Assembly: GCA_025355955.1 (NCBI GenBank)
Contig: JANXYP010000006.1
Location: forward strand, 1-59,826
Direction: 5' to 3'
Source of the DNA: Chloroflexota bacterium
GTDB lineage: Bacteria > Chloroflexota > Chloroflexia > QHBQ01
DNA length: 59,826 nucleotides
Shown here: positions 25,200-44,181 of the stretch, piece by piece
How positions within the stretch are numbered: position 1 is the first letter of the stretch
Layout of the letters: each line of letters begins with the position of its first letter
Translations under genes and position numbers: made by a program
The notes under the pieces: model-generated
The model's database searches: none
The model's input: the letters and a program-made list of their open reading frames with translations, nothing else
What the model was told of the DNA's origin: nothing

Positions 25200-27425
25200 C
25201 TATTCCCGCTGCAGATGCACGATCAGCACGGCAATATCCGCCGGGTTGACCCCCGCGAGGCGGGCGGCCTGGCCCAGGGTGGCGGGGCGCATCTGCTGCA
25301 GCTTTTGCTGCGCTTCGCGGCGTAGTCCGGTCATGGCGAGATAGTCGAAGTCGGCGGGTAGACGGCGCTCCTCCATGCTGCGGGCGCGCTCCACCTCGAA
25401 GCGTTCGCGCTTGATGTAGCCAGCGTACTTGGCGATTAGCTCGACCTGCTCGACCACCTCCTGTTGGAGTTTTGAGTTTTGAGTTTTGAGTTTTGAGTTA
25501 AATGCTGAGTATTGGGCATTATCGGTAGGGGCGAACCGTTGTTCGCCCTGCATCCCGGCATCGGCATTATCGGTAGGGGCGAACCGTTGTTCGCCCTGCA
25601 TCCCAGCGCCGGCCTCATCTGTAGGGGCGAACCGTTGTTCGCCCAGCTCCCCCACCCAGCCTCCCTCGGTGGGGGATGGGTTTTCCTTATCTACAATCTG
25701 CAATCTATAATCTACAATCACTGGCAGCACATGGTAGGTTACATCCTGGCGCTTGAGGTAGTCCATTACGCTGCTGGCATGGGTGACGGGCGGGAAGCCA
25801 GCGGCGGTCAACGCCGCATTGAGGCCCGCGTTGGGGTTGATGCGTTCGCGGCTTAGGCGGGTGACGGTGGTGGCGATCAGTTCTCGCTTTAGCTCGACCG
25901 CTTCGTATTGCTGTTCGTCCAGCAGACCGAGGCGGTAGCCGATTGCGGCAAGGCGCAGGTCGGCGTTGTCAGTGCGTAGCAGGGTGCGATGCTCGGCGCG
26001 GGCGGTCATCAGGCGGTAGGGTTCGCGGAGCTCCTTGGTGGTGAGGTCATCGGCCATCACCCCGATGTACGCCAGGCTGCGCGGCAGGATAAGCAGTTCG
26101 CCGCGCTCAAGCTGCTCGATAGTCGCCCGCGCCTCAGTTGGCATATCCGTGTCGCGCACGGTGCGATTGGGCAACCCGCCAGCACGGAGCGCGGCGTTGA
26201 TGCCCGCAAGGATGCCCTGGCCTGCTGCCTCCTCGTAGCCGGAGGTGCCATTAATTTGCCCAGCGAGGAACAGGTTGGCGACCCGTTTGCTCTCCATGGT
26301 CGCCTGCAATTCGCTGGCTTGCACTGCATCATACTCTACCGCGTAGCCGTTACGCATAACCTCGACGTGGCGCAAAGCCGGGATGGTACGTAGCATTGCC
26401 AGTTGCACATCTTCGGGCAGGCTGGTGTTCGCGCCCTGCACGTATACCTCGTTGGTCTGCCAGCCTTCCGGCTCCAGGTATAGCTGCTGCCGCTCCTTTT
26501 CGGGGAAGCGCGTTACCTTGTCCTCGATGCTGGGGCAATAGCGCGGTCCCACCCCTTCGATGATGCCGCTGAACATGGGGGCGCGGTCGATGTTGTCGCG
26601 GATCAGCTGATGGGTGTCGGCGTTGGTGTGGATCAGGTAGCAGGCCATCTGCGGTCGCCACTCGCTCGGCTGGGGGTTGGGATAGATGGGTAGCGGTTCG
26701 AGCATGGTCGGCGTGGTCGGCCAGTGGCTGAAGTGCAGCGGGGTGGGGCTGCCATACTGGGGGGCGGTTTGGCTGAAGTCCAGGCTACGCGCATCCACCC
26801 GTGGCGGGGTGCCGGTCTTGAGCCGCAGCAGCTTGAAGCCAAGGCTCTCCACCGTCTCGCCAAGTTCGACCGCAGGCGCTTCGCCAGCGCGACCGGCGGC
26901 CATGGTCATCTCGCCCATCACAATGCGTCCGCGCAGGAAGGTGCCAGTGGTCAGCACCACCGCAGTCGCATAATAGGTTACGCCGCCATTGGTGACAATG
27001 CCGCGCACGATGCGCCGCCCGTCTGCCTCACCAATGATCAGCTTGCTGACCATTGCCTGCTTGAGATAAAGGTTGGGTTGCTGCTCGACCGCCTGCTTCA
27101 TCGTGGCGGCGTAGAGGCGCTTGTCGCTCTGCGCCCTGAGCGCCTGCACCGCCGGGCCTTTGCCGGTGTTGAGGGTGCGGATCTGGATGAAGGTGCGATC
27201 GGTGACGCGGGCCATCTCGCCACCGAGCGCATCGAGTTCGCGCACTACATGGCCCTTAGCTGGCCCGCCGATGCTGGGGTTGCAGGGCATCAGCGCGACG
27301 GTATCAAGGTTGGCGGTGAGCAGCAGGGTCCGCCGTCCCATGCGGGCAGCGGCCAACGCGGCCTCGCAGCCTGCGTGTCCGCCCCCGATCACGATTACAT
27401 CGTAGTTGTCGGTGAGAGGTGGCAT
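25200..27425 (-). CDS. mnmG: tRNA uridine-5-carboxymethylaminomethyl modification protein MnmG/GidA with about 84-aa repeat-derived insertion
   Basis: DVIVIGGGHAGCEAALAAARMGRRTLLLT; MPCNPSIGGPAKGHVVRELDALGGEM; C-term EQVELIAKYAGYIKRE; insertion about 25466..25722. Confidence 0.95.
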   Translation of the reverse strand: MPPLTDNYDVIVIGGGHAGCEAALAAARMGRRTLLLTANLDTVALMPCNPSIGGPAKGHVVRELDALGGEMARVTDRTFIQIRTLNTGKGPAVQALRAQSDKRLYAATMKQAVEQQPNLYLKQAMVSKLIIGEADGRRIVRGIVTNGGVTYYATAVVLTTGTFLRGRIVMGEMTMAAGRAGEAPAVELGETVESLGFKLLRLKTGTPPRVDARSLDFSQTAPQYGSPTPLHFSHWPTTPTMLEPLPIYPNPQPSEWRPQMACYLIHTNADTHQLIRDNIDRAPMFSGIIEGVGPRYCPSIEDKVTRFPEKERQQLYLEPEGWQTNEVYVQGANTSLPEDVQLAMLRTIPALRHVEVMRNGYAVEYDAVQASELQATMESKRVANLFLAGQINGTSGYEEAAGQGILAGINAALRAGGLPNRTVRDTDMPTEARATIEQLERGELLILPRSLAYIGVMADDLTTKELREPYRLMTARAEHRTLLRTDNADLRLAAIGYRLGLLDEQQYEAVELKRELIATTVTRLSRERINPNAGLNAALTAAGFPPVTHASSVMDYLKRQDVTYHVLPVIVDYRLQIVDKENPSPTEGGWVGELGEQRFAPTDEAGAGMQGEQRFAPTDNADAGMQGEQRFAPTDNAQYSAFNSKLKTQNSKLQQEVVEQVELIAKYAGYIKRERFEVERARSMEERRLPADFDYLAMTGLRREAQQKLQQMRPATLGQAARLAGVNPADIAVLIVHLQRE
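25466..25722. repeat. Composite repeat insertion within mnmG: heptamers, 3x palindromic core (48-bp period), PSPTEGG-type palindrome, second heptamer array
   Basis: gagttttgagttttgag; gtaggggcgaaccgttgttcgccc at 25525, 25573, 25621; cccacccagcctccctcggtggggga; ctacaatctgcaatctataatctacaatc. Confidence 0.9.
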
Positions 27426-29849: not shown

Positions 29850-31996
29850 TAGCGGGGGAAGGCTTCGCGTAGGCCGCCGTCTACCGGCATCATACTGCCG
29901 GTGGTCTTGGCAGTGCGGTCGGAGGCGTAGAATAGGGCGGCCTCGGCCACATCCTCAGCGGTTACTTCGACGCGCAGCAGGTTGCGCTGGCGGTAGAAAT
30001 CCTCAAGTTGGTCAGGAGCAATGCCGTAGGAGCGGGCGCGCTCGGTACGCACCTCAGCGCTCCACAGCCCGGAGCCGGAGAAGATTGCGTCGGGGTTGAC
30101 CATGTTCGAGCGGATGCCAAATGGCCCGCCTTCAAGGGCCAACACCCGCGCCAGTTGCGCCTCTGCCGCCTTCGCCGCGCTATATGCGCCGAAATCCTTG
30201 CCCGGCGCGGTCACGTTCTTGGTGGCGATGAACACCAGGCTGCCGCCCGTACCTTGCGCCTTCATCACCCGCAGCGCCTCGCGGGCCACCAGAAAGTGGC
30301 CGGTGGCGTTGACCGCGAAACTGCGCTGCCAATCCGCCAGGGTAAGCTCGTCAATCGGGCAACTCTGGGCGATGCCCGCATTGGATACCAGCACATCGAG
30401 GCCGCCATATTCCAGCAGCATCCGTTGATAGGCCGCCTGCACACTAGCCTCGTCGCTGACGTTCATCTCCACTGCGATGGCGCGATTGTTGGGGTTGGCC
30501 TTGTTTAGTTCGTCGGCCAGCGTCACCGCTTTGTCAATATCCAAATCAGCGCAGACCACGTGTGCGCCCGCAGCGGCGAAGCGGTGGGCGATGCCCGCAC
30601 CGATGGCTCCCGCCGCGCCGGTGAGCAGCGCCACCCGCCGCGCTAGCTCTTTCTCTGGCGGCGCGAGGGTTAGCTTGTATAGCTCCAGCGGCCAGTATTC
30701 CGCCGCAAACGCATCCTTGTCGGACAGCGAGCGATAACCGCCAGTGCGCTCCGCCGCTGCGATGATGGCGATGGTGTGATGGTAGATGTCGTTGGCGATC
30801 ATCACCGCCTTGCTGTCGCGGCCCACGCTGAACATCCCTAGCCCGCGTATCAACACCACGCGCGGCACTGCTGGCAGCATCGGCTCACCCGTCTGATGCT
30901 GCTGGTAGTAGGCCACATATTCCTTAGCCCATTTGTCATACGCCTGTCGTGCTGCCGCGATGAGTGCGACTGGGTCGGTTGGGTCAGCGGCATCAATCCA
31001 CAGTGGGTGGCGTTTGGTGTTGAGGATATGGTCGGGGGTGGCTGCGCCCTCGCGCAACACAGCGGGCAGCCGCTCTAGGCTGATAGTCTCGCCATTGACG
31101 AAGGCCAGCACGTCCTCGCTATCGTCAAAGCGCATCACCACCCGCTCGACTTGTCCGCCCTGGCTCAGTATCCCGCGCAGGGTGGGGGCGAGGGTGGAGT
31201 TTTGAGTTTTGAGTTTTGAGTTTTGAGTTGGGTTGGCTGTTTCCACGCTGACAGAAACGTGCTGGCTACTCCCCTCCCGCCGGGAGGGGTTGGGGGTGGG
31301 TGTACCTGGGGTAATGAATTGAGCAGCATAGCGGGCGGCACGGTCTACCATCTCGATGTGGCGTTGGTAGGCCTCGTGAGGGTCATCGGCCCAGGTGATC
31401 AGGCCGTGGTTGAGCAGGATTACGCCCTTGATTGTGGGTCTGCTGAGGGCGGACGCGCCCACCAGTTTCGACAGGTAGAAGCCGGGACGGTGGTAGGGGA
31501 TGATCGCCAGCTCGTCGCCGTAAAGTTCGGCCAGGATCTCGGTGCAGCGTTGGTTGTTGGTTACAGCAAGGATGGCATCGGCGTGGCTATGCACTACGCT
31601 GCGGGCGGGAACGAAGCCGTGTAGCAGCGTTTCAATCGAGGGGCGGCTGGAGTTCGGTTCGATCAGGGTGTGGGCCAGATACTCTACCATCTGCTCGTCG
31701 CTCATCGACCCTTGTTCAAACAGGGCAAGCACATCGTCCATCCGCACGCCAGGGAAGTCGCGCTGCGTCACTGCCTTGAGGTCGGAGCCGCTGCCTTTCA
31801 CCCGCATTACGTAGGTGTCGCGGCCACGAAAGTCGGTTTCGTGCAGCTTCAGCGAGGTGTTACCGCCGCCCCAAACCACCAGGCGCGGGTCGCTGCCCAC
31901 CAACCGTGACTGATACACCAGCAGATCCAACCCCGCCAACCCAGCCACCGCCTGCCCATCCCAGCGGTCGGCGATAATTCGCTCCTCTGTCATCAT
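29849..31996 (-). CDS. Bifunctional rhamnulose-1-phosphate aldolase/short-chain dehydrogenase with repeat-derived insertion
   Basis: N-term class II aldolase (GGGNTSLKLHETDFRGRDTYVMRVKGSGSDLK), C-term SDR (ALLTGAAGAIGAGIAHRFAAAGAHVV ... YSAAKAAEAQL); insertion about 31197..31310. Confidence 0.9.
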   Translation of the reverse strand: MMTEERIIADRWDGQAVAGLAGLDLLVYQSRLVGSDPRLVVWGGGNTSLKLHETDFRGRDTYVMRVKGSGSDLKAVTQRDFPGVRMDDVLALFEQGSMSDEQMVEYLAHTLIEPNSSRPSIETLLHGFVPARSVVHSHADAILAVTNNQRCTEILAELYGDELAIIPYHRPGFYLSKLVGASALSRPTIKGVILLNHGLITWADDPHEAYQRHIEMVDRAARYAAQFITPGTPTPNPSRREGSSQHVSVSVETANPTQNSKLKTQNSTLAPTLRGILSQGGQVERVVMRFDDSEDVLAFVNGETISLERLPAVLREGAATPDHILNTKRHPLWIDAADPTDPVALIAAARQAYDKWAKEYVAYYQQHQTGEPMLPAVPRVVLIRGLGMFSVGRDSKAVMIANDIYHHTIAIIAAAERTGGYRSLSDKDAFAAEYWPLELYKLTLAPPEKELARRVALLTGAAGAIGAGIAHRFAAAGAHVVCADLDIDKAVTLADELNKANPNNRAIAVEMNVSDEASVQAAYQRMLLEYGGLDVLVSNAGIAQSCPIDELTLADWQRSFAVNATGHFLVAREALRVMKAQGTGGSLVFIATKNVTAPGKDFGAYSAAKAAEAQLARVLALEGGPFGIRSNMVNPDAIFSGSGLWSAEVRTERARSYGIAPDQLEDFYRQRNLLRVEVTAEDVAEAALFYASDRTAKTTGSMMPVDGGLREAFPR

Positions 31997-38478: not shown

Positions 38479-38669
38479 GGGTGCGCGTCACGTCCTTACG
38501 GAGCAAGCGTTCAGTAGGGGCGAACCGTTGTTCGCCCTGGTTGGATATGCAAGAACGTGACGCACACCCTTCGTTTGTGGTGCGCGTCACGTTCTTACGG
38601 AGCAAGCGTTCAGTAGGGGCGAACCATAGTTCGCCCTGGTTGGATATGCAAGAACGTGATGCACACCCA
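38479..38669. mobile_element. Two tandem B1 elements upstream of the subtilase gene
   Basis: gggtgcgcgtcacg..aagaacgtgacgcacaccc twice, separated by about 10 bp. Confidence 0.75.
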
Positions 38670-43281: not shown

Positions 43282-44181
43282 ATGAACAACCCCGTCACCC
43301 GCGTGCTGCTGCTCAGTAGCTTCGGTGCGTATGCCTTCATCTACGTCCCTGGCGTGATCTTGCTGGCCCTCGACATCAAGTACCCCAACAGCGAATGGGT
43401 GAGCAGCCTGCTGCTCATCCTCGCTGGACTCAGCGCCGCGCTGTGGGTAGTGGTCAATCGTGGGCTGGGGCGCGGCCTCGGCTTCGCAGGCGCGGTGCTG
43501 TTGCTTTCCTTCAGCGTCGAGTACCTGGGGGTTAGCACTGGGTTTATCTTCGGGCCATATCAGTACACCACTGTCCTCGCCCCATTGTTGTTCACCGTTC
43601 CCCTCGCCATCCCCTTTGCCTGGCTCACCGTCGTCCTCGCCTCCTGGTACGTTGCCAATGCGTTCACCCCTCCCCAGCCCTCCCCTAAGATCGGGGAGGG
43701 GGTAAATATCACCCTTCCCCAGCCCTCTCCTATGATAGGGGAGGGAGGATTGCCCGCACCAGCACTCAAAACTCAAAACTCAAAACTCAAAACTCTCGCG
43801 CTGGCGGGGTTGTTGACTGTGCTGCTGGATCTGCTAATCGAGCCAGTCGCCGTCTACGTTAGCGGCTACTGGCTCTGGCAACGTGGAGGGATATATTATG
43901 GCATCCCTGCACAGAACTTCATTGCCTGGGCAGTGGTTGGGGGGCTGATGGCGCTGCTGGCCGCCCGCTTCATCGGCAACCCTACGTCGCGCTCCGCTTA
44001 TGCTTTCCTGCCACCAATGTTGTATATCATGAACGCGCTGCTTTTCGGCGTGGTTGCCCTGGCGCACGGCTACGTTGTCACCGGCCTGCTGGCCGCGCTT
44101 GCCCTCACGCTGGGTGGGTGGGCGTTGTACTCCACCTTGCCGCACGCCCCCTCCCAGCCTCCCCCGGTGGGGGAGGAGTAA
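43282..44181 (+). CDS. Carotenoid biosynthesis-type (CruF/DUF422-like) polytopic membrane protein with repeat-derived insertion and tail
   Basis: Hydrophobic protein with VSTGFIFGPYQYT, LLDLLIEPVAVYVSGYWLWQRGGIYYGIPAQNFIAW. Confidence 0.75.
   Translation: MNNPVTRVLLLSSFGAYAFIYVPGVILLALDIKYPNSEWVSSLLLILAGLSAALWVVVNRGLGRGLGFAGAVLLLSFSVEYLGVSTGFIFGPYQYTTVLAPLLFTVPLAIPFAWLTVVLASWYVANAFTPPQPSPKIGEGVNITLPQPSPMIGEGGLPAPALKTQNSKLKTLALAGLLTVLLDLLIEPVAVYVSGYWLWQRGGIYYGIPAQNFIAWAVVGGLMALLAARFIGNPTSRSAYAFLPPMLYIMNALLFGVVALAHGYVVTGLLAALALTLGGWALYSTLPHAPSQPPPVGEE

Follow-up and report, generated by a model that had tools for sequence, protein, structure and literature searches.

The mnmG (gidA) gene at 25200..27425 on the minus strand of the window (by which we mean the whole 59,826-nucleotide stretch of Chloroflexota DNA analysed here) contains a segment that the initial annotation described as an in-frame insertion of about 84 residues, built from repeats that also occur between genes. 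This raises the question of how such a segment arose within a conserved enzyme, and whether the protein that carries it still acts as MnmG. In our reading, which we consider very probable, the insert consists of stacked dispersed genomic repeats, which were taken up without loss of frame by a permissive loop between helices of MnmG and could be tolerated owing to the polar and disordered nature of the peptide that they encode.

The mnmG gene and its insert

The host gene is an unbroken ORF of 741 aa, whose product scored 770 bits against the TIGR00136 equivalog in a profile search (cutoff 525), and in which PF01134 and both C-terminal domains (PF21680 and PF13932) were recognised. It is present in single copy, no second mnmG being found in the assembly, which also encodes MnmE, the partner of MnmG. 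The motifs of the catalytic domain and of the C-terminus are conserved, and mnmG sequence on both sides of the insert looks coding. The insert itself comprises residues 571-654 (25464..25715, minus strand; 84 aa, 252 bp) and splits the Pfam domain GIDA_C_1st, of which profile positions 1-68 match at 25716-25916 and positions 61-96 at 25401-25511. It is missing from other MnmG: no counterpart was found in an alignment with 69 other sequences (two of which, L039 and L063, look like one gene), while the flanks do align, and the insertion site is occupied in these proteins by a short linker of variable length. A homologous conserved domain at this position, for which a check of the orthologues had been proposed, is ruled out, since none is carried by any other MnmG aligned. 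The corresponding C-terminal segment of the E. coli protein had been described as short, and in the comparison with E. coli MnmG (3cp2) the matches on either side of the insert are indeed contiguous, meeting at chain residue 556. Allowing for an apparent 20-residue tag this would be approximately native residue 536, so that the insertion site would precede by about 20 residues the arm (554-629) which takes on order when E. coli MnmG binds MnmE (PMC12397908). A comparison of the insert DNA with plasmids gave no match.

Followed in the direction of translation (all features on the minus strand), the insert starts with an AATCTAC/AATCTGC heptamer array (25689..25715, read VDYRLQIVD) and a CCCCACC..GGTGGGG palindrome (25644..25685, read ENPSPTEGGWVGEL), continues with three units of a GTAG-tagged palindrome, namely unit 1 (25596..25643, read GEQRFAPTDEAGAGMQ), unit 2 (25548..25595, read GEQRFAPTDNADAGMQ) and unit 3 with a partial spacer (25515..25547, coordinates taken from the 48-bp period, read GEQRFAPTDNA), and ends with a single degenerate ACTCAGC heptamer unit (25500..25514, read QYSAF) and an ACTCAAA heptamer array (25464..25499, read NSKLKTQNSKLQ). 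For the repeat-encoded stretch of MnmG the tryptic peptide FAPTDEAGAGMQGEQR is predicted. Peptides, frame and the exact 48-bp period are thus all as initially described, but we count five repeat families instead of four, having added ACTCAGC, which ranks second in abundance among the heptamers of the sampled sequence, in a weak assignment made from one unit. As had been claimed, members of these families also occur at other places in the window, and much more often than expected by chance: in counts that include the insert itself, and palindrome sites on both strands, the main (GTAG-tagged) palindrome gave 38 strand hits at ≤3 mismatches (0.46 expected), the ACTCAAA heptamer 20 (0.00), the AATCTRC heptamer 6 (0.01) and the CCC palindrome 3 (0.02).

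MnmG could be impaired by a large insert in its helical domain, a part of the protein that becomes ordered in E. coli when MnmE is bound (PMC12397908), in which case the open gene would be a recent loss-of-function allele heading for decay. We regard this as improbable, as the frame has been kept over 252 bp, where the mnmG frame is the sole open frame among six, as the C-terminal domain downstream of the insert is fully conserved, and as many other conserved genes bear such inserts and cannot all be dying. A disordered loop, for which a structure prediction had been suggested as a check, is also what AlphaFold returned: the model (22 aligned sequences; mean pLDDT 85, pTM 0.85) retains the MnmG fold and had MnmG structures ranked first in a Foldseek search, while pLDDT falls to about 30 in the insert and lies below 50 for residues 582-639 and 642-649. 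The 84-residue loop is probably floppy. MnmG most likely keeps its function, with the insert as a near-neutral loop.

Structure, abundance and tandem growth of the repeats

MnmG is not an isolated case among the genes of this genome: 1.75 Mb of sampled sequence (about a third of the genome) held 610 repeat clusters, 41 of them in coding frames of 32 ORFs, with coding context judged from flanks only and with most contigs in part of the sample picked for carrying repeats, so that these rates are not genome averages. From aligned copies of the main palindrome we derived the consensus TYYGTAG-GGGCGAAC-CGTT-GTTCGCCC-TG, a stem-loop (stem 8 bp, loop 4 nt, unit about 30 bp) with an unpaired GTAG tag at one end, GTAG being present in 273 of 331 aligned copies. 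Such a tag, a stem of 5-13 bp, a loop of 2-20 nt, many copies and a mostly intergenic location are the features of GTAG REPs, and all of them were found. The assembly has 501 exact cores, whereas the count per genome was 0-2 in 399 further Chloroflexota genomes, which belong to the same class at best and none to the same family. Among 430 sampled copies 41 lie in called genes, a marked depletion given that 79% of the DNA is coding. Between genes the palindrome shows no strand preference (74:62), and a general strand bias of the element is thereby rejected. No match to RAYT (PF01797) was obtained in the assembly, which is 84% complete, and palindrome neighbours within 200 bp form 97 direct and 10 inverted pairs, so head-to-head arrangement does not predominate. 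At least 12 heptamer families (ACTCAAA, ACTCAGC, AATCTGC, AAAGTTG and others) are present in the sampled sequence, where a period of seven dominates; a control in which the heptamer was read backward is uninformative, since reversing the pattern gives a phase of that very repeat. Clustering of ACTCAAA arrays with palindromes was rejected, 15 lying within 150 bp of a palindrome where 13.7 were expected.

The close direct pairs also indicate how arrays grow. In 59 of the 97 the spacer is repeated together with the palindrome on one side, and for 53 of these 59 repeated spacers the core was found nowhere else in the sample. As spacers are repeated and yet locus-specific, tandem copies arise by local duplication of the palindrome plus its flank. 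The 48-bp period and the spacer identity of 0.79 between the palindrome units of mnmG fit local duplication, and the three palindromes look as if a single copy had inserted and had then been duplicated in tandem on the spot, together with its flank, with hairpin-provoked slippage as the likely cause. Intergenic arrays of the main palindrome with locus-specific spacers are found at 42-165 (period 62) and 38480-38668 (period 99) of the window and represent a non-coding counterpart of the mnmG array.

Reading frame and other host genes

As a rule, five of the six frames of the main palindrome are free of stops. At coding loci one frame was used in 10 of 11 cases (18 of 19 copies), read as GEQRFAPT or GEPLFAPT-like, a preference well above the share of 0.206 under an open-frame null (P=1.3e-6). 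Likewise, neighbouring palindromes are spaced at a period divisible by three in 11 of 11 coding pairs versus 20 of 86 others (P=3e-4 for an estimated six independent coding loci, in a test mildly biased by ascertainment, since a cluster was called coding only if one frame was open throughout). From the one-frame preference in genes, the multiple-of-three periods and the lack of strand bias outside genes we infer selection at the protein level.

These observations also bear on whether the insert could be an assembly or binning artefact, with repeats misjoined into mnmG. The assembly is fragmented (420 contigs), short repeats can mislead assemblers, and errors are conceivable above all in the number of tandem copies; however, both flanks are mnmG, in frame and with nothing missing, and the same pattern recurs in 32 ORFs with a consistency of frame that random joins would not produce, as they would not hold one of five frames. 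We therefore consider an artefact extremely improbable.

In-frame repeats were found in RlmD (L207:4009-5619) and HisH (L188:13769-14731), both scoring over the equivalog cutoff, in YbeY (L227:9027-10118) and in a poly(A)/CCA polymerase (L157:17290-18654) with a poly(A) polymerase head domain. Within the window, a bifunctional rhamnulose-1-phosphate aldolase/dehydrogenase (over the equivalog cutoff) carries the CCC palindrome plus an ACTCAAA array at 31197-31289, and a CruF-like carotenoid protein an in-frame ACTCAAA array at 43764-43795; a MobA-like transferase is also among the hosts. Several hosts are RNA enzymes (RlmD, YbeY, the poly(A)/CCA polymerase and MnmG), and others are sugar, carotenoid and membrane proteins. 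The longest stretch need not be that of MnmG: a 1069-aa ORF (L136:11948-15154) holds six palindromes and an ACTCAAA array, amounting to ~90 repeat-encoded aa. In two paralogous STAND ATPases (cyclase, NB-ARC and TPR domains; L228:857-3907 and L163:9278-12547) different repeats occupy the same inter-domain loop, which suggests permissive sites.

The repeats might alternatively be kept for a role, either as mRNA hairpins or as a functional peptide loop common to several RNA enzymes. The insert RNA folds better than shuffled sequences (z=-3.0), so that an effect on the mRNA may exist, RlmD and other RNA-related enzymes contain the same peptide, and one frame is strongly preferred. Yet tolerance alone explains the frame preference, genes as a whole contain far fewer palindromes than their share of the DNA would predict, the insert is predicted to be disordered and the range of hosts extends beyond RNA enzymes, all of which makes retention for a role very improbable. 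A broader proposal, that this lineage routinely builds protein segments from unrelated repeat families with one preferred peptide selected per family, and that conserved enzymes, notably RNA enzymes (MnmG, RlmD, YbeY and the poly(A)/CCA polymerase), share possibly functional repeat-encoded loops, is in our view rather unlikely.

Our preferred reading, the stepwise gain of tolerated repeats, would comprise the following events. The REP-like palindrome with its GTAG tag would have spread through the genome, as would several heptamers in tandem; that they are abundant there is observed. Copies may then have reached the MnmG loop one after another. The palindrome with its flank would then have been locally duplicated to the three copies whose pattern is seen today, probably by the slippage considered above. 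Finally, only events that kept the frame would have survived, with the palindrome accepted essentially as GEQRFAPT or GEPLFAPT, a bias that is observed and for which selection would be the cause.

Comparison with known repeat systems

In cyanobacteria, very small dispersed repeats (SDR) and tandem repeats (STRR), heptamers included, occur as a mixture, in part within genes; by description they resemble the situation found here, in another lineage and with other sequences. In the open-access literature we found no published account of in-frame repeat insertion in Chloroflexota beyond the GTAG repeats listed for the phylum. The insert extends this phenomenon to Chloroflexota, in stacked form, and the 32 host ORFs make the conversion of repeat DNA into protein countable, with frame, period and host site all testable. 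It also carries a warning for annotation, as peptides of the GEQRFAPT or NSKLKTQ type represent repeat DNA and no homologous domains.

The initial annotation likened the insert to the peptides created by Rickettsia palindromic elements (RPEs). The likeness holds for the way of working, genomic repeats that give rise to an in-frame peptide in a loop between helices: as with RPEs (PMC3767692), palindromic repeats lie in ORFs without breaking the frame, and the insert is predicted in an exposed loop. It does not hold for the element, since RPEs are 100-150 bp long and confined to Rickettsia and relatives such as Wolbachia (PMC3767692), whereas here units of ~30 bp with another sequence are found in Chloroflexota, several families at one site. 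Heptamers such as TAACTGA of Beggiatoaceae and cyanobacteria (PMC4679880) are likewise tandem 7-bp units, mostly intergenic and sometimes in ORFs in a stop-free orientation, but most of their coding insertions affect hypothetical proteins or the termini of proteins, whereas the present ones have other units and lie inside conserved domains.

Because the main palindrome is short and GTAG-tagged, intragenic GTAG REPs (PMC3733652), clusters of which can encode 43-82 aa, are a nearer comparison than RPEs. In both cases a short palindrome carries an unpaired GTAG on one of its ends, is present in many copies and lies mostly between genes, with some copies in ORFs, and the hosts include RNA-modifying enzymes (PMC3733652). 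Different are the predominance of direct tandem pairs, where head-to-head dimers predominate in GTAG REPs, the lack of a detectable RAYT in this incomplete assembly, and the stacking with unrelated heptamers. In the GTAG REP superfamily RAYT is usual, although some species are reported to lack it, and head-to-head dimers are typical, though not strictly defining. The palindrome has the structure of GTAG REPs; as both RAYT and head-to-head predominance were looked for and not found, it is not firmly filed as a member. Set against these systems, the novelty lies in the occurrence in Chloroflexota, in unrelated families being stacked at a single site and in a frame preference that can be counted.
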